From Anaerolineae bacterium (GTDB lineage Bacteria; Chloroflexota; Anaerolineae; Aggregatilineales; J027), in NCBI GenBank assembly GCA_019913005.1, contig JAIOHL010000345.1, positions 1 through 64,000 of the forward strand: a stretch of DNA of 64,000 nt, in the 5' to 3' direction. The notes below the pieces were generated by a model. The model saw only the letters and a list, made by a program, of their open reading frames with translations, was not told the origin of the DNA and did not search any database. The position numbers were made by a program, and so were the translations under genes. This document shows positions 5,688-64,000 of the stretch, piece after piece. Position 1 is the first letter of the stretch; each line of letters starts with the position of its first letter.

Positions 5688-6806
5688 ATGCAAATTGGCA
5701 TTCTCATCCCCGGCTTTTCGGCGGATGAAAGCGACTGGTGTATTCCGGTCTATCTGAATCTGGTGCGCGAATTGGCCCGTCACCATCAGGTACGGGTCTT
5801 TCCCATCCGCTATCCCTATACCCAAGTCCCCTATACGGTTTATAACGCCCTCGTGCTTCCGACTGGCGGCGGTTCATATACACGTGGCTTGGCGCGTTGG
5901 CGTGTTTTACGACGTACCCTAGCCTTGATTGAAGCCCAACATGCCCTGCGGCCCTTTGATGTATTCCATGCGGTTTGGGCCGATGAAACAGGTGTGGTGG
6001 CGAATTGGGCAGGCGAAAAATTAGGCATCCCGACGGTGGTTAGCATCGCGGGGGGGGAATTGGTCGGCTTCCCTGATATTGATTATGGACTACAAAATGG
6101 GCGCGTCACCCGCCGTTTGGTAGAACGAGCATTAATGGGAGCTACGCGCATCGTTGCTCCCTGTGATTACTCCATCCTGATGGCGCTGGATAAATTGCCA
6201 TCAGAAAGGGGCGAGGTACTCCGGAAAGTGCCGTTGGGAGTGGACGCGGATTTATTTAAACCGCCTGCCCAAGAATTAGATTGGCGACCCCGCGAATTTT
6301 TGCATGTTGGGTCGCTGGTGCCGATTAAAGACCAAGTGACACTGCTTCACCTGATTGCCAAGCTGCCCAATGCGACGCTGGATATTGTGGGGGACGGCCC
6401 ACTGTATCCACAATTAGAAGCCTTGACGCATGAACTCGGCATTGCGGATCGGGTGGTGTTTCATGGCGCAGTATCACATGAAAAATTACCCGCCTACTAT
6501 CAAGAAGCCCGCTTTTTGTTGATGACCTCCCGCCACGAAGCCTTTTGTATGGCGGCGCTTGAAGCACTGGCATGTGGGGCGGGGGTGATTGGGACAGCCG
6601 TTGGAGTATTGCCCGAAATCGGCATGACTGCGCCAGTTGGAGATGTGACGGCTTTGCAGGAAATCGTGATTGGGCGGACACGCAAACATGCCCAATTGCA
6701 GCGGGCACGCTATCGCATGTTGGTCGAGACAACCTATACCGTCAAACATATGGCGGATGGCTTGGTGGAGGTTTATGAGGAGGCGTGTGCCGATTTTGAA
6801 AAATGA
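5688..6806 (+). CDS. Glycosyltransferase family 4, 372 aa
   Basis: A GT-B fold retaining glycosyltransferase. Residues 1-175 form the acceptor-binding domain and open with MQIGILIPGFSADESDW. The C-terminal nucleotide-sugar domain begins near residue 200 (FLHVGSLVPIKDQVTLL) and contains IVGDGPLYPQLE and the catalytic EX7E segment EAFCMAALEALACG near 285. No signal peptide is present; it acts at the cytoplasmic face of the membrane. Donor and acceptor cannot be deduced. It follows the sugar-kinase-like gene by nine bases. The gene end meets the minus-strand Lrp-type gene with 21 bases between stops. Confidence 0.9.
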   Translation: MQIGILIPGFSADESDWCIPVYLNLVRELARHHQVRVFPIRYPYTQVPYTVYNALVLPTGGGSYTRGLARWRVLRRTLALIEAQHALRPFDVFHAVWADETGVVANWAGEKLGIPTVVSIAGGELVGFPDIDYGLQNGRVTRRLVERALMGATRIVAPCDYSILMALDKLPSERGEVLRKVPLGVDADLFKPPAQELDWRPREFLHVGSLVPIKDQVTLLHLIAKLPNATLDIVGDGPLYPQLEALTHELGIADRVVFHGAVSHEKLPAYYQEARFLLMTSRHEAFCMAALEALACGAGVIGTAVGVLPEIGMTAPVGDVTALQEIVIGRTRKHAQLQRARYRMLVETTYTVKHMADGLVEVYEEACADFEK

Positions 6807-6827
6807 CCCGCCTCCAACAAAAAATCG

Positions 6828-7058
6828 CTATTGGATCCAGCGGGCGACCTTTGAATCCGTCCCCAGTACCTCTGGCACTTCGACGATTTTGTCAATCACT
6901 GTGTCCATCGAAGCAATATCCTCGCCCTCGACAATCGCAATAACATCCGGTGTCCCAAAAAGCGCGTCGGCTTTAACCACACCCGGAATTGTGCGAATGG
7001 CTTGCACAACTTTGCGGGGATGTTGGGTGGTAATGAAGATATAGGCCCAAACTTTCAT
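6828..7058 (-). CDS. Stand-alone Lrp/AsnC ligand-binding (RAM) domain protein, 76 aa
   Basis: The whole protein is one alpha-beta sandwich of the Lrp/AsnC effector-binding type: it starts MKVWAYIFITTQHPRKVVQAI and contains DALFGTPDVIAIVEGED, the typical 'tG.yDliaiv' strand-helix pattern. No DNA-binding helix-turn-helix precedes it. Such short forms are common and are thought to bind amino acids or to mix with full-length Lrp proteins in octamers. It is 73 bases downstream of the hydrolase gene on the same strand. Confidence 0.85.
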   Translation of the reverse strand: MKVWAYIFITTQHPRKVVQAIRTIPGVVKADALFGTPDVIAIVEGEDIASMDTVIDKIVEVPEVLGTDSKVARWIQ

Positions 7059-7131
7059 CAGTGCCTTCCCATCAGTGAGTGAGAATAGAGGGTTGTTGTA
7101 GTACGGATGTTCTTGTGTTTGAAGGGTATAT

Positions 7132-7809
7132 CTAGGCCGAATACAATTCCTGAAGGTAATTTTTGACTACTGACAGCCGATAATACCCATAGTGGTCGCA
7201 GTCCGGCACGATGAATAATCTCCCCTGCGGCAAGGCGCGATATAGTTCCAAAAAATCCTCTGCTGATACCACCGGGTCACGATCCCCACCAATGAGATGC
7301 ACGGGAAAATTGAGATGCTGAAAATCGGCCAGTTGAAAATCCCAACCAATGGAACTGCCTTTTTCGGGGTCGAAGACTGTTTTGACAATGCCAGTGCGTG
7401 TTTCGGGTGGGCCTGCCAGAATTGCCATTTGTTCAGGTGTGGGACGGCGATGATTGGCCCCAATCATGACCAATGACTTAAAACGTTCGGGCACTTCGAC
7501 GGCTAACCCCAACAGCACCGCCGCTCCCAAGCTGTAGCCGATAGCATGAATTGAATCTAGCTTTAGGGCGTCTAAAAATTTCCGCATATCGGCAATCAGG
7601 CGGGGCATATGATAATCCCCCGCCGGGTTGGGGGTGTTGCCGTGCCCACGCTGGTCAGGGGCAAGGACGCGATAGCCGCCACTTTTGGGAAATGTCCAAC
7701 TCATGAGCTTGCCGCGTGCAGTGGTGGCGTGTAGTGCCAGTAGGATTTCTGGCCCGCCGGGTTGTTCTTCGTAGTAGAGAGGCAAATCATCTAATTGGAT
7801 GGTTGGCAT
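7132..7809 (-). CDS. Alpha/beta-fold hydrolase, 225 aa
   Basis: A soluble serine hydrolase. The nucleophile elbow is GYSLGA near residue 93, the acid is probably the Asp of GGDRDPVV near 175, and the catalytic His that of DCDHYGYY near 203. The early RVLAPDQRGHGNTPNP segment is the usual 'PDlrGhG' strand of epoxide-hydrolase and ester-hydrolase relatives. The protein is shorter than most (cap region reduced). Substrate is unknown. It is transcribed away from mutM; 91 bases separate the two starts. Confidence 0.87.
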   Translation of the reverse strand: MPTIQLDDLPLYYEEQPGGPEILLALHATTARGKLMSWTFPKSGGYRVLAPDQRGHGNTPNPAGDYHMPRLIADMRKFLDALKLDSIHAIGYSLGAAVLLGLAVEVPERFKSLVMIGANHRRPTPEQMAILAGPPETRTGIVKTVFDPEKGSSIGWDFQLADFQHLNFPVHLIGGDRDPVVSAEDFLELYRALPQGRLFIVPDCDHYGYYRLSVVKNYLQELYSA

Positions 7810-7900
7810 ATGGTTTCATACTCTTGCTGAGTTGTTAAAAGGCCTGTACATTTATGTAAAATGTAGGCTAAATTCAGATACAATAAATCATAGTGGTCAA

Positions 7901-8719
7901 ATGCCAGAATTACCAGAAGTAGAAACTGTAGTACGGGGTGTCCGTCCAAATTTGGAGGGGCGCACTATCACCGATGTATGGCTAGATTGGCCGCGTGGTT
8001 TGATCGGGCCAGCCCCAGAGGTTTTTATTGAACGCCTCAAGGGTCAGCGCGTCCAGAGCATTGCCCGACGCGCCAAATATATCGTCATTCGGCTGGATGC
8101 AGATTATCTGTTGATCCACCTTAAGATGACAGGGCGTTTATATGTCGTGCCCGATGATTTTGAAGAGCACGCCGACCAGTGGGTACATTTCAAATTTCAG
8201 TTAGACAATGCCCATCAACTCCGTTTCTCGGATTCGCGCAAATTTGGGCGAGTCTATCTAACTGAAAACGCAGAAGAGGTAACCGGGGCACTTGGCCCAG
8301 AGCCGTTATCGGATGAATTTACGGTAGACGTTTTTAGGGAACGGCTGTCCAAACGTAAGGGAACAATTAAGCCCTTGCTGTTAAATCAGGCGTTTGTCGC
8401 CGGGGTGGGGAATATCTATGCCGATGAATCACTCCATATCGCCCATATTCTCCCCACACGCAAGGCCGAATCGTTGACCCCATCCGAAGTAGACGCCCTC
8501 TGGCAGGCTATTCGTCAAGCGCTGGCAAATGGCCTTGAGCGTGAAGGGGCGAGCGTCAACTGGTATCGTAAACCAGATGGCAGCAAAGGTAGCGCCCAAG
8601 AGAGTTTGTTTGTCTATGGGCAAACAGGTCAAGTGTGTAGAACCTGCCAACAGGCAGTAATTGAAAAAATCGTCGTAGGACAGCGTGGGACTCATTTTTG
8701 CCCCAACTGTCAAAAATAG
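7901..8719 (+). CDS. mutM: Formamidopyrimidine-DNA glycosylase (Fpg/MutM), 272 aa
   Basis: The enzyme removes 8-oxoguanine and ring-opened purines and cuts the abasic site by beta,delta-elimination. The start must be the ATG at 7901 because the catalytic N-terminal proline is residue 2: MPELPEVETVVRG, with Glu3 also catalytic. An upstream in-frame extension to 7799 would block this. Lys in LIHLKMTGRL and the helix-two-turn-helix with NQAFVAGVGNIYADE are in place. The C-terminal zinc finger has C-x2-C and C-x2-C (CRTCQQ and CPNCQK). Length is typical. The following gene starts 16 bases later. Confidence 0.96.
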   Translation: MPELPEVETVVRGVRPNLEGRTITDVWLDWPRGLIGPAPEVFIERLKGQRVQSIARRAKYIVIRLDADYLLIHLKMTGRLYVVPDDFEEHADQWVHFKFQLDNAHQLRFSDSRKFGRVYLTENAEEVTGALGPEPLSDEFTVDVFRERLSKRKGTIKPLLLNQAFVAGVGNIYADESLHIAHILPTRKAESLTPSEVDALWQAIRQALANGLEREGASVNWYRKPDGSKGSAQESLFVYGQTGQVCRTCQQAVIEKIVVGQRGTHFCPNCQK

Positions 8720-52307: not shown

Positions 52308-53216
52308 GATGTCTGCCCCTCAGATAACAACGGCCTGCCCGTCGCCAAATCCACCTGCAAAAATTGGCTGGTGGCTTGGGCTTGGATGCCAATCAGGGCC
52401 GCCACTTGTTTGACAATATCACGCGCCTCCTCCCATGACAACTCCGTTTCATCGCCCAACTTTTGCGCGGCAACTTCTTCGGCAATGCCTTGATAGGTCA
52501 GGGCGAGGGTGGGTTGATTATCGCGCAGGCTGGCTTTTTTGGGCAGGTCGAGTTCATCCTTGAGATAAGCTGCTGTTCGTCCCCACAGCCCCTGATAAAT
52601 ATCATCGGTGGCGACGGCATAGTGCATCTGGGTCAACACTTCATAGACCGCCGCTTTGAGGGCCGAGGTAAATTTGGCGCGTTTAACCTTACCCGCCAAC
52701 CGTGCGCTAATCCATCGGTCATCCTTCCCGCGTCGGCGGGTAGGCTTCAATCGCGGCGTCAATCGCTTCATCCGGGTCAATCGCGCCAGAGGTAATGACG
52801 GTTTCGGGTTCAAGGCGCACGGCATCCACAAATGCCCCGGCTTCCGATAGAAATTTTTGGATGGCGGAAAGCTGTGGACGGGCCTTCGTCGCGCGTAAAT
52901 ATTGCGCTATCAAATAAAGCCCTTTATCATCAGTAAAATCCATTTGGTAGGTCTTGCCATCTGAAGCAACATACGGCAGTGGTTGGATTGAATCCATCAA
53001 GTGGATGTTTTCGGTGTGATTTCGCTTTAAGTCGGCCCAAATTTGCTTAGGCTTGGATGCACCCGTTAGACCTGCAATCCAGTCTTGAATGGCATAGACA
53101 TAAATACCCAGATTGTTCTGATGATGTTGCAACAGAAATTCCCATTTATTTGCTACCAATAACGGAAGGGGTAAATCTTCCTCTGGTATATTTTGAATAA
53201 CAGGTAGTGGTGACAT
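52304..53216 (-). pseudogene. BRO-N/antirepressor-like (DinD-like) protein, frameshifted
   Basis: Two frames together make one protein. The first, 52719-53216 (165 aa), has the BRO/antirepressor N-terminal pattern PKQIWADLKRNHTENIHLM, then KTYQMDFTDDKGLYLIAQYL and KFLSEAGAFVDAVR, and stops with TGA after AYPPTREG. The second frame resumes at the same place with KDDRWISARLAGKVKRAKF and DDIYQGLWGRTAAYLKDELD, ending 52304. Related proteins that I know continue directly from an 'AI-aYrxxG-DxWI-xRl-G-v-R-xFt-aL' segment to 'IYxGLW-RT-a', which this joint recreates if one base is removed at the run GGGAAGG near 52726-52732. Either a decayed gene or a sequencing error. Confidence 0.75.
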
Positions 53217-53688: not shown

Positions 53689-54351
53689 ATGACCCGAATT
53701 TTATTAGTCCGCCATGCTGTCAATGATTTTGTCAAAACGGGCCGCCTTGCCGGGTGGACGCCGGGAGTGCATCTCAATGAGGAAGGACTTGCCCAAGCCG
53801 CCGCCACCGGAAAACGCTTGGAGGATATACCCATTACCGCCATTTACAGCAGTCCCCTAGAGCGCACCGTCGAAACCGCCGAAGCCATTCTCAAGTATCA
53901 CCCATCGCTGAATCTGCAATTAGAGGAAAAAATCGGTGAACTACGTTATGGTAAATGGGAGGGCGGGGAGCTTCGCAAACTCAACCAAAAACGGCGCTGG
54001 TATACCGTGCAGCATTATCCCTCACGTATGCAGTTTCCACACGGCGAAACCATCCGCGCTGCTCAATCACGGGCGGTTGAGGTGATGGAAAAACTGGTGG
54101 AGCGTCATGAAAATGGTACTGTCGTAGTCGTTTCGCACAGTGATATTATCAAGCTGATTCTGGCTTACTACTTGGGAATGCACTTGGATATGTATCAGCG
54201 GCTAAATATTTCACCCGCCTCGATTTCGGTGTTACTCTTGGCGGAAAATCGCCCGACGGTGGATGTCATGAACGATACCAGTCATCTGCCCAAATCCGAA
54301 GAACGCCCCCAGCCCATACCCACGCCAGAATCGGCGTCACAGTATATTTAA
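53689..54351 (+). CDS. Histidine phosphatase (MSMEG_4193-like, TIGR03848), 220 aa
   Basis: A phosphoglycerate-mutase-fold phosphatase. The catalytic His is in ILLVRHAVNDF at residues 4-14, the acid-base Glu in YSSPLERTVETAEAIL near 55, and the second His in VVVVSHSDIIKLILA near 145. The insertion GRLAGWTPGVHLNEEGLAQA is typical of the MSMEG_4193 branch. With DUF3090 and SCO1664 downstream it makes a cassette which I know from Actinobacteria (for example around the Rv2133c-Rv2135c locus). Substrate unknown. Confidence 0.9.
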   Translation: MTRILLVRHAVNDFVKTGRLAGWTPGVHLNEEGLAQAAATGKRLEDIPITAIYSSPLERTVETAEAILKYHPSLNLQLEEKIGELRYGKWEGGELRKLNQKRRWYTVQHYPSRMQFPHGETIRAAQSRAVEVMEKLVERHENGTVVVVSHSDIIKLILAYYLGMHLDMYQRLNISPASISVLLLAENRPTVDVMNDTSHLPKSEERPQPIPTPESASQYI

Positions 54352-54373
54352 CACGCTTGCCAAAGGATGCCCT

Positions 54374-54880
54374 ATGGCCTTTTCCGAAATTGAACTGAAC
54401 CCGATTGACTTTATCACACTTGGCACGGTTGGCCCCAAAGGTCGCCGCCAGTTTAACATTCAGGCTGGACAGGGGACGCAGATTGTGACGCTGACCCTCG
54501 AAAAAGAACAGGCCCGTCGCATTGCCGAAGCGATTGAAGAAATGCTGACCGATCTCTACAAACGCTTCCCAACCCTGATTCAGCGGCGTGTCAATCTTAA
54601 AGAGATGAATATGGAACTGCGTGATCCGGTTGAACCCCGTTTCCGCATTGCCCAAATTGGCCTCGGTTATGACCCGGTGCAAGACCTCATCATCATGGTC
54701 GCCCAAGAATTGATGGCGATTGAGGAAGGCGAAGACCCGGAACTGCTCCAACCGAGTGTGGTACGTTTGTGGGGACGCCGTGACCTATTTGATGCCCTTT
54801 GTCAGCATACCCTAGAAGTGGTCGAAGCAGGCCGCGCCGATCCCAAATCGAACGGGCATATCATTCATTACTGGACGTAA
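54374..54880 (+). CDS. DUF3090 family protein (TIGR03847), 168 aa
   Basis: Typical features of DUF3090 are seen: the start IELNPIDFITLGTVGPKGRR, TLTLEKEQARRIAEAI and a C-terminal CQHTLEVVEAGRADPKSNGH. In other members the last part carries cysteines that may bind metal; here only one Cys of that group remains (ALCQH). Soluble. Function unknown. It is 22 bases after the phosphatase gene, 58 bases before the SCO1664-like gene, the same order as in Actinobacteria. Confidence 0.9.
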   Translation: MAFSEIELNPIDFITLGTVGPKGRRQFNIQAGQGTQIVTLTLEKEQARRIAEAIEEMLTDLYKRFPTLIQRRVNLKEMNMELRDPVEPRFRIAQIGLGYDPVQDLIIMVAQELMAIEEGEDPELLQPSVVRLWGRRDLFDALCQHTLEVVEAGRADPKSNGHIIHYWT

Positions 54881-54938
54881 CCGAACCAAGTTTCTTTTGA
54901 GCGAGTAATGTAATCTTGAGTAGCCGGGGAACAGCATC

Positions 54939-55748
54939 ATGAGCGACGACATTCCACCCACTTCCAATGACCAACCGCAGCTACCCAATGATGTTCCACC
55001 ATCGGATGATGATGACAACCAAGTGGTGGAAATTGAACGGGTCATGAAGCTGCTGCAACGCGGCAAGATAAAACGGGGTATGGGACGTCTGCGCTGGTCT
55101 ACCAACTATACAACGGTGGTGCAGGTCAAAGACGACGAGCTTGAAACATTGGCGATTTACAAACCCCAAAACGGTGAACGTTCACTGTGGGATTTCCCCG
55201 ATGGCACATTATGTTATCGGGAAGTAGCTGCTTTCGTCGTTTCGGAAGCATTGGATTGGCGGATTATCCCGCCGACGGTACTGCGTCAAGATGGGCCAGA
55301 GGGTGTGGGATCACTGCAATTATTCATCCAGCACGACGCTGAAATCAACTATTTTTCGCTGGATGACAGTTTTGTCCCCCAATTGTTGATGATGGCCCTC
55401 TTTGATTGTTTGGTCAACAATGCGGATCGCAAGGGTGGGCATGTCTTGGTGGATGCGCGGGGCAAAATTTGGGGCATAGATCATGGCATTTGTTTCCATC
55501 CCTATCCCAAACTCCGCACCGTAATCTGGGATTTTGCTGGACAGCCGATCCCCGATGAACTGTTGCAGGATGTCAGTCGGGTAGTGGAAACCTTGTGTAA
55601 CACAGCCGATGAATTGACCATCACACTGCAAAAATTACTGGAACCGGACGAAATTGAGGCAATCAATAAGCGGGGGAACCGCTTGTTGACCACCAAAAAA
55701 TATCCACACCCCGGCCCCGGCCCAAGCTATCCTTGGCCTCCGGTGTGA
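54939..55748 (+). CDS. SCO1664-family protein (TIGR03843), PI3/4-kinase-like, 269 aa
   Basis: After an acidic, Pro-rich 35-residue start, the domain reads GRLRWSTNYTTVVQVKDDEL, ETLAIYKPQNGERSLWDFPD, REVAAFVVSEALDWRIIPPT and the catalytic-loop-like LFDCLVNNADRKGGHVLVDA (HxxxD-N like, with IWGIDHGICFHPYPKLRT as the metal site). These match the SCO1664 family, distantly related to phosphatidylinositol kinases. Whether it phosphorylates anything is unknown. Third gene of the conserved cassette. Confidence 0.9.
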   Translation: MSDDIPPTSNDQPQLPNDVPPSDDDDNQVVEIERVMKLLQRGKIKRGMGRLRWSTNYTTVVQVKDDELETLAIYKPQNGERSLWDFPDGTLCYREVAAFVVSEALDWRIIPPTVLRQDGPEGVGSLQLFIQHDAEINYFSLDDSFVPQLLMMALFDCLVNNADRKGGHVLVDARGKIWGIDHGICFHPYPKLRTVIWDFAGQPIPDELLQDVSRVVETLCNTADELTITLQKLLEPDEIEAINKRGNRLLTTKKYPHPGPGPSYPWPPV

Positions 55749-60498: not shown

Positions 60499-63400
60499 AT
60501 GCCCTTTATTGAAGCCCCTACAACGTTTTACATGGGTCGTCAATATGACCCTAATGCTGGTCGCTTATCAGACGATGTGGTCTATTATGATTCGCGTGAT
60601 CTCACTACCCACGCTGTCGTAGTGGGGATGACGGGCAGTGGCAAAACCGGCCTGTGCATTACCCTTTTGGAAGAAGCCGCCCTAGATGGCCTCCCGGCGA
60701 TTATCATTGATCCCAAAGGGGACATCACCAATTTGCTGCTGACCTTTCCCGAACTGCGTCCCGAAGATTTTGGCCCTTGGGTCAACGTAGATGATGCACG
60801 GCGGGCAGGGCTGGAACTCAGTGAATATTCCCGTGATATTTCGCAGCGCTGGCGTGAAGGGTTAAGCAGTTGGGGTATTGGCCCACAGCGGATTGCAGCG
60901 CTCAAGAATGCCGCTGAATTTAGCATCTACACCCCCGGTTCGGATGCAGGTTTGCCTGTCAGTATTTTGGATGCCATGCACGCCCCGCGTGAAGGTTGGG
61001 ACAGCAACGAAGAATATCACCGCGAACGCATTCGTGGAATCACCACCGCATTGTTGGCCCTTACCGGGATGAAAACGCCCAATGCTGTCAACAGCCGCGA
61101 GCACGTCCTGATTTCCAACTTATTTGAATACGCATGGCGCGGGGGCATTGACCTGAATCTGCAAGACATCATCGTGCAGGTGCAGCAGCCACCCTTTAAC
61201 AAACTCGGTGTACTGGATATTGACAGTTTCTTCCCCGAAAAAGACCGCTTCAAGCTGGCGATGGAACTAAACAACATCATTGCCTCGCCCAGTTTCCAAA
61301 GCTGGCTGCGGGGTGAACCGCTTGACCTGCAATATTTGATGTATACTCCACAAGGCAAGCCGCGCATCAATATTTTCTATATCGCCCACCTCAGCGACGC
61401 CGAACGCACGTTTATCATGACGTTGCTGCTGGAAAATATTCTGGCTACCATGCGTTCGATGAGTGGTACGACCAGCTTGCGAGCCATCTTGTACATTGAC
61501 GAGGTTTATGGTCATTTGCCGCCCTATCCCAAGAACCCGCCGACCAAAGAACCCCTGCTGCGCTTGCTAAAACAAGGCCGCGCGTTCGGGATTGGGGTAG
61601 TCTTGGCGACGCAAAACCCCGGCGACTTGGATTATAAAGGTCTCTCCAATGCCGGGACGTGGTTTATTGGTCGTTTGCAGACCGAAAACGACAAGAAAAA
61701 GGTGTTGGATGGTCTGGCGACTGTTTCCAGTGCCGAAAATCAACTCAATCTTGAAACACTAGATAAGCTGATTTCATCGGTTGATCCGCGTGTGTTTGTC
61801 ATGAACAATGTGCATGACCCCAGCGGCCCAATTTTACTGCATACTCGTTGGGCGATGTCCTATCTGCGTGGGCCACTCACCCGTGACCAAATTCGCCGCC
61901 TGATGGATCCCCAGCTACATCAATTGACTAATCAGGCCCAATACAGCCAATCGCCTTTTGCGGCTCAATCTCAATATGGACAGCCACAGTACACTGCGCC
62001 GTATGGGACTCCCGCTTATGGACAGCAACCCCAAGCCGCGCCGCCTGCCTATGGACAGCAACCACCTGCCGTTCCTAATTATGGGCAACAGCCGCCGCAA
62101 CAAGGTTTTCCGCCAGCTTATGGTCAGTCACCATCGGCCACAGGCCCACAACCAACCTTGTCACAGCCGTACACCCCTGCGCCGGGTGCTGCGGGCGGGT
62201 TTACCCCACAGCCGCCCAGCGTGCCGACCTATACGCCCCAGCAGCAATATTCGCCTGCACCTGCTGGCTCAACCCCGCCGCCGCTGTCGCTGCCAGAAGC
62301 GCCAAATACGGGTCGTTTGGGGGTCGTTCCGCCGCCGCCACCCTTGCCCGAAAACACCGGGGTCTATAACCCTGTACAATACCAACCGCCCACTGCGCCC
62401 TTCCAAAACAACACGGCTGGTATGGCCCCGACAGGTTTCATCCCGCCGCCTGCACCCTACCAAACCGGGGCATCGCCCTATGCGGGGCAGTCCTATAATC
62501 CACCTACTGCACCCTATCAGGAACCCGTCAATCCCTTTGCCCCGCCGACTGCGCCCTATCAAGGGGGTGGAGCACCTGTCGCGCCACAATCCTATACACC
62601 ACCCACCGCGCCATTTACTGGGCAAGACGCCGATTTTAATACCGGGGTGGCTGTGCCATCGTCCAGTCGGGGCAAATCTGGCAAGGCTGCTGCCAGCAAA
62701 TCCGCTGCCAGTGGCAATACTATGTCGGTGACAGGTTTTGAGCGTGATGCTGATTTGCCACCGGGTTACAGTTTTACGCCACCCGTGATTTCGTCCACCA
62801 TCAATCAGTATTATTTACCCTCGATTGTCACCTTGCAGCAGGCTATTGCGCGTTGGGAACGGCAAATGGGTCAGCGTGCCTCGCAATTTGGTGGCAATCA
62901 GGTCGTCTATACGCCCTTCTTGCTGGCACAGGTACAGGTGCGCTATCTGGATCGCCGCTCAGGGGTCAATATGGTCGAAAACTATGCCTACTATATCCCC
63001 AATTTGGATCGTGCTGGCCTGATTCAATGGGATCAATATCGTGATCGTCCGGTGATGGCGTCGCAGCTATCCGCTGCACCCTTCCAACAAGCGGCCTATG
63101 GCGAATTATCGCCCGGTATGACAGATCGGGCACGCCTGACCGCCTTAAAAAATGAAGTCGTGGATTATTTGACCCGTACTGCTGGGATGACGCTGCCCTA
63201 CAATTCCACGCTGGATATTTATGGCACACCCGGCACGGGTTTCCAAGATTTCCAGATGCGGGTGAATGCCGCTGCCCGTGAAGCCCGTGACGCCGAGATT
63301 GACAAGGTGACAGCCAAATATGAGGCCATTTTTGACCGCCTTGAGGAAAAAATCCGGCGCGAGGAACGTGAACTGCGTACTGATAAACAAGCGCTGCAAG

Positions 63401-64000
63401 ACTTGGGTCAGGAAGAATTGTTCACATTGGGCGAGGCCGTCGTCAGCTTGATGCGTGGTCATACGGCTTATACGCTGTCTCGTGTCAGCCGCGCCCGTCG
63501 TTATAAAGGTCAGGCCAAAGGCGATGTGGTGGAAAGCGACGCCGTCATCCGCGAAGTTGAAGCCGAGATGGACGCCGCCCAACAGCGTTTTGAATATGAA
63601 TTGCAGCAAATCAACGCCAAGTGGAAACAAATCGCGGGTACGGTTGAAGAAGTTCGCGTAACGCCCTACAAGAAGGATATTTATCCTGAATTGTTCGGTA
63701 TTTGTTGGATGCCCGAATATCTGTTGGACATCAACGGAATGCAAGCCAAATTGAAGGCATGGGAAAACAGCACCAATCGTAACCGTGCTGTTGATGCGCC
63801 GCAAAATATGGCTTCTAGTGGTGGATATGGACAGCAGGGCTATGGTGGGCCAAATACCCAACAATATTTGACCTCCCCTCAACAAACCTATCCCCAGCAA
63901 ACGTATCCTCAACAGCAGGGTGGCAATTACCCGCAGCAGGGATACGATCAAGGTTATGATCAGGGGTATGGTCAGCAGGGCCAAGACCAATATTACGACG
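60499..64000 (+). CDS. Very large HerA/DUF87-like ATP-binding protein with disordered linker (partial at the right edge)
   Basis: The frame is open from ATG 60499 to the window end (1167 codons, no stop). Residues about 1-470 are a HerA/VirB4-type ATPase: VVGMTGSGKTGLCITLLEE (Walker A, near 43-50), IIIDPKGDITNLLL, SILDAMHAP, Walker B ILYIDEVYGHLPP near 332 and GVVLATQNPGDLDYKGLS (sensor-like) near 372. About 475-740 is a Pro/Tyr/Gln-rich linker with repeats such as YGQQP and PPTAPYQ. About 750-1090 is a folded domain with a coiled coil (EAIFDRLEEKIRREEREL). From about 1105 a second YGQQG/YPQQ-rich tail starts and continues past 64000. Function unknown; ATP-driven DNA or protein translocation is likely from the family. 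Confidence 0.85.
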   Translation, partial: MPFIEAPTTFYMGRQYDPNAGRLSDDVVYYDSRDLTTHAVVVGMTGSGKTGLCITLLEEAALDGLPAIIIDPKGDITNLLLTFPELRPEDFGPWVNVDDARRAGLELSEYSRDISQRWREGLSSWGIGPQRIAALKNAAEFSIYTPGSDAGLPVSILDAMHAPREGWDSNEEYHRERIRGITTALLALTGMKTPNAVNSREHVLISNLFEYAWRGGIDLNLQDIIVQVQQPPFNKLGVLDIDSFFPEKDRFKLAMELNNIIASPSFQSWLRGEPLDLQYLMYTPQGKPRINIFYIAHLSDAERTFIMTLLLENILATMRSMSGTTSLRAILYIDEVYGHLPPYPKNPPTKEPLLRLLKQGRAFGIGVVLATQNPGDLDYKGLSNAGTWFIGRLQTENDKKKVLDGLATVSSAENQLNLETLDKLISSVDPRVFVMNNVHDPSGPILLHTRWAMSYLRGPLTRDQIRRLMDPQLHQLTNQAQYSQSPFAAQSQYGQPQYTAPYGTPAYGQQPQAAPPAYGQQPPAVPNYGQQPPQQGFPPAYGQSPSATGPQPTLSQPYTPAPGAAGGFTPQPPSVPTYTPQQQYSPAPAGSTPPPLSLPEAPNTGRLGVVPPPPPLPENTGVYNPVQYQPPTAPFQNNTAGMAPTGFIPPPAPYQTGASPYAGQSYNPPTAPYQEPVNPFAPPTAPYQGGGAPVAPQSYTPPTAPFTGQDADFNTGVAVPSSSRGKSGKAAASKSAASGNTMSVTGFERDADLPPGYSFTPPVISSTINQYYLPSIVTLQQAIARWERQMGQRASQFGGNQVVYTPFLLAQVQVRYLDRRSGVNMVENYAYYIPNLDRAGLIQWDQYRDRPVMASQLSAAPFQQAAYGELSPGMTDRARLTALKNEVVDYLTRTAGMTLPYNSTLDIYGTPGTGFQDFQMRVNAAAREARDAEIDKVTAKYEAIFDRLEEKIRREERELRTDKQALQDLGQEELFTLGEAVVSLMRGHTAYTLSRVSRARRYKGQAKGDVVESDAVIREVEAEMDAAQQRFEYELQQINAKWKQIAGTVEEVRVTPYKKDIYPELFGICWMPEYLLDINGMQAKLKAWENSTNRNRAVDAPQNMASSGGYGQQGYGGPNTQQYLTSPQQTYPQQTYPQQQGGNYPQQGYDQGYDQGYGQQGQDQYYD

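Follow-up and report, generated by a model that had tools for sequence, protein, structure and literature searches.

A protein of 1178 amino acids, encoded on the forward strand from position 60499 of the window (the whole stretch of 64,000 nucleotides that was analysed), is a member of an unnamed family within the FtsK-HerA superfamily. The protein consists of four parts: an ATPase core (residues 1-475), a linker (476-745), a folded domain (about 746-1095) and a tail (1096-1178). The family is widespread, and the libraries searched give it neither a name nor a function; the form that linker and tail take here is a lineage-specific elaboration of this conserved ATPase family. On balance we lean towards reading the protein as a cytosolic motor ATPase whose coiled-coil domain is tethered by a long, disordered, motif-bearing linker, a design similar to that of FtsK that would have been reached in a different family.

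The reading frame is open through the edge of the window and closes 12 codons past it, at contig position 64035 (contig C264, 71370 bases), such that the protein ends in ...QYYDDPGYQQGGGNW. The original prediction, which saw the frame no further than position 64000, had allowed for an end caused by an error just beyond it; the stop is an ordinary one, common to related species, and three of these reproduce the frame, so that a frameshift or end-of-frame artefact is ruled out. The description of the protein as giant was overstated, as nearly all relatives compared measure 787-1188 residues.

ATPase core and its place in the superfamily

The core (60499..61923, forward strand), which had been described as intact, indeed carries both Walker motifs undamaged: Walker A (GMTGSGKTG, residues 43-51; 60625..60651) is invariant in 32 of 32 aligned relatives, and Walker B (AILYIDEV, residues 329-336; 61483..61506) contains the catalytic DE at residues 334-335, with both D334 and E335 invariant. 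In an alignment with 31 relatives from several phyla, the identity of the core ranges from 50 to 99%. Two Pfam families match it above their cut-offs (DUF87 at 33.1 bits, cut-off 23.2; HerA_C at 23.3 bits, cut-off 22), and a fold search with the model of a full-length relative retrieved HerA (E 3e-10) and DndH-C (E 4.5e-10), with VirB4 and SIR2-HerA also matched. Walker A, Walker B with its DE, and a RecA-like fold of the HerA/FtsK type together place the core in the FtsK-HerA superfamily.

The protein differs from each of the known systems with which it was compared. HerA, of the HerA-NurA end-resection pair, has a RecA-like core of matching fold, but no HAS barrel was found ahead of the core here: the P-loop begins at residue 43, and two strands come before it in the relative's model. 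The protein therefore is not HerA proper; it also scores far under the HerA equivalog cut-offs (18.6 of 970 bits for NF040819 and 21 of 800 for NF040937), and its gene is not beside NurA, the single NurA found in the genome being on contig C92. YjgR/DUF853 (PDB 11kk) is likewise a HerA-like ATPase with a P-loop near its N-terminus and matches the sequence around Walker A; the match, however, covers 42-44 residues at the P-loop, and a chain of 503 residues leaves no room for this linker and the second domain. CedB, VirB4 and MADS subunit 8 give weak profile matches over the core that lie far under the curated cut-offs where these exist (38.6 of 700 bits for the CedB equivalog), and their partner genes are absent nearby.

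For the linker, FtsK is the nearest precedent. E. coli FtsK is an FtsK-HerA motor with a long, disordered linker rich in Pro and Gln (FtsKL), the length of which depends on the lineage (PMC5357621); the linker of FtsK is about 125 to 650 residues long and binds divisome proteins (PMC5357621). In FtsK a membrane domain stands at the N-terminus, and this linker connects it to a motor that lies at the C-terminus and has a gamma domain; in the ATPase described here the motor is N-terminal. The N-terminal transmembrane domain of FtsK/SpoIIIE was not found: a Kyte-Doolittle scan of 19-mers detected no transmembrane-like segment, its maximum (1.67) being inside the core beside the P-loop, and hydrophobic segments outside the core are absent. 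The FtsK_SpoIIIE domain is below its cut-off (17.8 of 24 bits), and the gamma (winged-helix) C-terminal domain was not found, no Pfam match to such a domain being seen down to E 0.1 over residues 1-1167. Without a transmembrane segment or a detected gamma domain the protein is not FtsK, and the long Pro/Gln-rich linker is a likeness of design between the two, and not one of position or of descent. The lack of a transmembrane segment also leaves the suggestion that the ATPase might span an envelope unsupported. The same genome encodes a separate FtsK-type protein (contig C338) and a stronger DUF87 protein (C28).

Linker, tail and C-terminal domain

The proposal that the linker leads to a second, folded domain containing a coiled coil has held up. 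Residues 746-1095 (62734..63783, forward strand) comprise a beta-rich part, which carries an antiparallel coiled-coil hairpin, in an AlphaFold model built on a 33-sequence alignment (pLDDT 87.2). The two helices of the hairpin, assigned by DSSP on the model, are of 72 and 58 residues and correspond to residues 915-986 and 990-1047 (model residues 180-251 and 255-312; 63241..63639). The identity of the domain to relatives is 19-98%, so it is more diverged than the core, and the alignment indicates that it is kept across phyla. Searching it by profile and by structure, as had been proposed, yielded this confident coiled-coil model but no assigned Pfam family or fold: for the window member no Pfam match rose above cut-off, scattered coiled-coil families being the only hits; Foldseek against the PDB returned nothing below E 0.001; and the matches from VIA-align were generic coiled coils confined to the hairpin (model residues 170-318), leaving the beta part unaligned.

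The linker between the two folded parts (61924..62733, forward strand), which is predicted to be disordered, is 270 residues long and consists chiefly of Pro (62, 23%), Ala (36, 13%), Gln (32, 12%), Gly (27, 10%) and Tyr (19, 7%), with ten charged residues. Measured over 60-residue stretches, it is the richest in P, Q, Y, G, T, S, A and N among the window's open reading frames of at least 200 residues. It contains YGQQ units at residues 507, 518 and 528 (62017..62091) and PPTAPY/F units at residues 630, 668, 682 and 701 (62386..62616). The tail occupies 63784..64000 of the window and extends to the stop at 64035; its 83 residues include 22 Gln, 17 Gly and 12 Tyr. The recurring PPTAPY and YGQQ units of the linker and the YPQQ/YGQQG tail were thus described correctly, and the repeats exceed those of composition shuffles: the linker has 22 repeated 5-mers (shuffle mean 1.5, maximum 11 in 1000 shuffles) and the tail 31 repeated 4-mers (shuffle mean 2.4, maximum 13). 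At the DNA level tandem repeats are weak, so the linker is not a simple slippage array, and a tandem-repeat artefact is ruled out. In-frame YGQQP was found only in the ATPase gene in the 7.6-Mb assembly, where three of the six DNA matches are in this gene and three in short spurious frames.

A table of 59 proteins revealed that the linker varies about 15-fold in length among relatives (18-290 residues) while both folded parts persist. Outside the order linkers are of 18-60 residues (one of 70) and most of these proteins have no long tail; within the order they are mostly of 70-290 residues and Pro-rich linkers are general, the lengthening having taken place within the order. A Tyr/Gln-rich linker together with a long tail was found in family f1 of the order only, and most strongly in the genus of the window genome, and no other family among those compared has a tail of such length; linkers of relatives in other families are mainly of Pro, Ala, Ser and Thr. 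The original prediction required a linker composition conserved among relatives: Tyr/Gln richness is kept in the genus and roughly in f1, but it is not a trait of the whole protein family.

A short motif, PPPx[ST]LP[E/D/G], is the most widely common feature of the linkers and was absent from those first listed. A motif scan placed two copies in the linker described here, PPPLSLPE at residues 593-600 (62275..62298, forward strand) and PPPPPLPE at residues 611-618 (62329..62352, forward strand). Searched for as PP-x(1-3)-LP[EDG], with [TA]PPPx[ST]LP[ED] as its typical form, it matched 42 times across 24 linkers, where shuffles gave 0.67; because related species do not supply independent linkers, this contrast is inflated and overstates significance. 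In families f1, f4, f5 and f8 the long linkers contain one to four copies, one of six f2 proteins has the motif, and the one f3 protein does not; copy number and surroundings vary between families. The Tyr/Gln part of the linker, which the original prediction picked out, is therefore the lineage-specific one and the Pro-Leu-Pro-acid motif the more widely common one. The motif was not found in any short-linker relative among the 59 proteins, and being missing from these, from most f2 proteins and from the sole f3 protein tabulated, it cannot be essential to the function of the core. The pattern matches 10 times genome-wide and its reverse 8 times, which rules out a role as a genome-wide docking code; the only other long frames of the genome that contain it are one of FHA type (L056) and one of NB-ARC/TPR type (L058), both named by eye.

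Possible roles of the linker

In the model that we favour, the core would form a ring (presumably a hexamer) that probably moves along or handles DNA, as its fold suggests. The coiled-coil domain would sit on a long disordered tether rather than be packed closely on the ring, and the linker may allow it to contact a partner or some second site as the ring operates. PPPxxLPE motifs may serve as docking sites for a partner or for the protein itself, and in f1 the Tyr/Gln expansion and the tail may add weak multivalent contacts. Should the motif prove to bind a partner, this protein would place the ATPase family in its pathway. The role of long disordered linkers in motor ATPases is a question raised by FtsK, and the series of linkers described above (18-290 residues, with and without the motif, the Tyr/Gln units and the tail, between constant domains) is a ready-made test set for it.

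Alternatively, the linker might be mainly a passive spacer that grew by gain of repeats, its composition fixed by what stays soluble and disordered. Its length is free to vary among relatives, even between close species (10 residues are absent in L007/L026), and elsewhere the same end domains are joined by linkers of 18-60 residues; we nonetheless think this rather unlikely, since the PPPxxLP[EDG] motif recurs in four families and dN/dS of the linker is low where it can be measured (0.037 between the window's own copy and L025, and 0.065 against L026). Against L027 dS is saturated and no ratio is computable, while the ratio of 0.049 between L026 and L027, with dS near 3, carries little weight; in the linker, the three comparisons with the own copy have 1, 10 and 18 gap columns. 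For the tail, comparisons within the genus gave 0.03, 0.045 and 0.08, and for the core 0.012-0.026. Where dS is measurable, linker and tail are thus under purifying selection on amino-acid identity or on composition, and this selection is weaker than that on the core by a factor of about two to three. Such selection argues that they are neither a sequencing error nor the product of free drift.

The possibility that Tyr/Gln/Pro linker and Tyr/Gln/Gly tail self-associate, gathering the ATPase into condensates, was raised by the original prediction, and the sequence offers something in its favour: 19 Tyr and 8 Phe in 270 nearly uncharged linker residues, 12 Tyr and 22 Gln in the tail, and a composition that purifying selection has kept in the genus. 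Sticker chemistry of the FUS kind, however, is between Tyr and Arg, and the two Arg of the linker restrict such contacts; Tyr/Gln richness with a tail is moreover limited to one family of the order, and we regard condensation as unlikely. Still more doubtful, in our view, is a combined history in which a motor family with an evolvable linker and a conserved PPPx[ST]LP[E/D/G] docking motif was expanded, in one Chloroflexota lineage, into a linker and tail of Tyr/Gln stickers that cluster the motor. If true, such a clustering motor would be a new example of an ATPase that gained condensate-forming sequence through lineage-specific expansion.

Gene neighbourhood and distribution

Within the genus, the ATPase gene is preceded by genes for MoxR, DUF58 and DUF4129 proteins and followed by a lipoprotein-like gene and gltX. 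Outside this genus the MoxR-DUF58-DUF4129 order is kept in G009 alone, and there partly, and functional coupling to these genes is accordingly rejected. Upstream of MoxR in the window, a phosphatase-like gene (of histidine-phosphatase type by eye), a DUF3090 gene (105 bits) and a PI3/PI4-kinase-like gene (38.5 bits) lie in a row at 53689-55748 (forward strand). On the reverse strand, at 52719-53216, an open reading frame of 165 residues matches PDC-S13, a candidate-defence model of PADLOC, with 38.4 bits along some 80 residues.

Of 61 genomes of the order, 17 have a gene of the PLD superfamily just upstream of the ATPase gene and on its strand (directly adjacent in 14). Its product has two PF13091 domains (E 2e-48) and, by eye, an N-terminal membrane anchor or lipoprotein-like signal, from which it could be proposed that the ATPase and this anchored protein form a DNA-processing unit at the envelope. 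We consider this proposal quite improbable: in the window genome the PLD gene is on a different contig (G000:C13:20775-21935), beside its own small partner gene, and G015, G038, G042, G050 and G057 have it although no ATPase was found in them. We read the adjacency as ancestral gene order, and as a functional hint that is at most weak. The PLD gene, which is single-copy in most genomes of the order and in several of them follows a small gene that matches no Pfam family, was recorded at L098:5213-6813 and at L101, L103, L106, L109, L111, L112, L117, L120, L121 and L134.

A defence ATPase akin to MADS subunit 8 or to the HerA of Sir2-HerA systems is very improbable, even with mad8 (61.9 bits) as the top PADLOC match, followed by several HerA models, and SIR2-HerA among the fold matches, given that no other MADS or Sir2 gene was detected among the 10 neighbours scanned (the other mad8 match, at 18.7 bits, is the MoxR ATPase) and that the family is present in 28 of the 33 genomes sampled from the same class and matches no record of the phage collection, unlike patchy, mobile defence islands.

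In the sample of the phylum, 3 of 218 genomes of other classes also carry the family. Relatives were identified in Anaerolineae and other Chloroflexota, a Zixibacterium, Woeseiaceae and another gammaproteobacterium, Acidimicrobiia and other actinobacteria, and an acidobacterial assembly; the plasmid collection contained distant matches only, and no paper about the family came up in searches of the literature. The assembly that contains the window measures 7.6 Mb in 365 contigs with 3% contamination, and its four sampled congeners are much smaller (4.9-5.6 Mb). In the acidobacterial assembly (B22D1T2, L050:5878-8352) the ATPase gene is split into two open reading frames, 5878-6618 and 6622-8352. 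In G010, G039, G044, G052 and others, the C-terminal part of the ATPase match contains at least one in-frame stop; these are probably matches that overrun the natural end of the gene.
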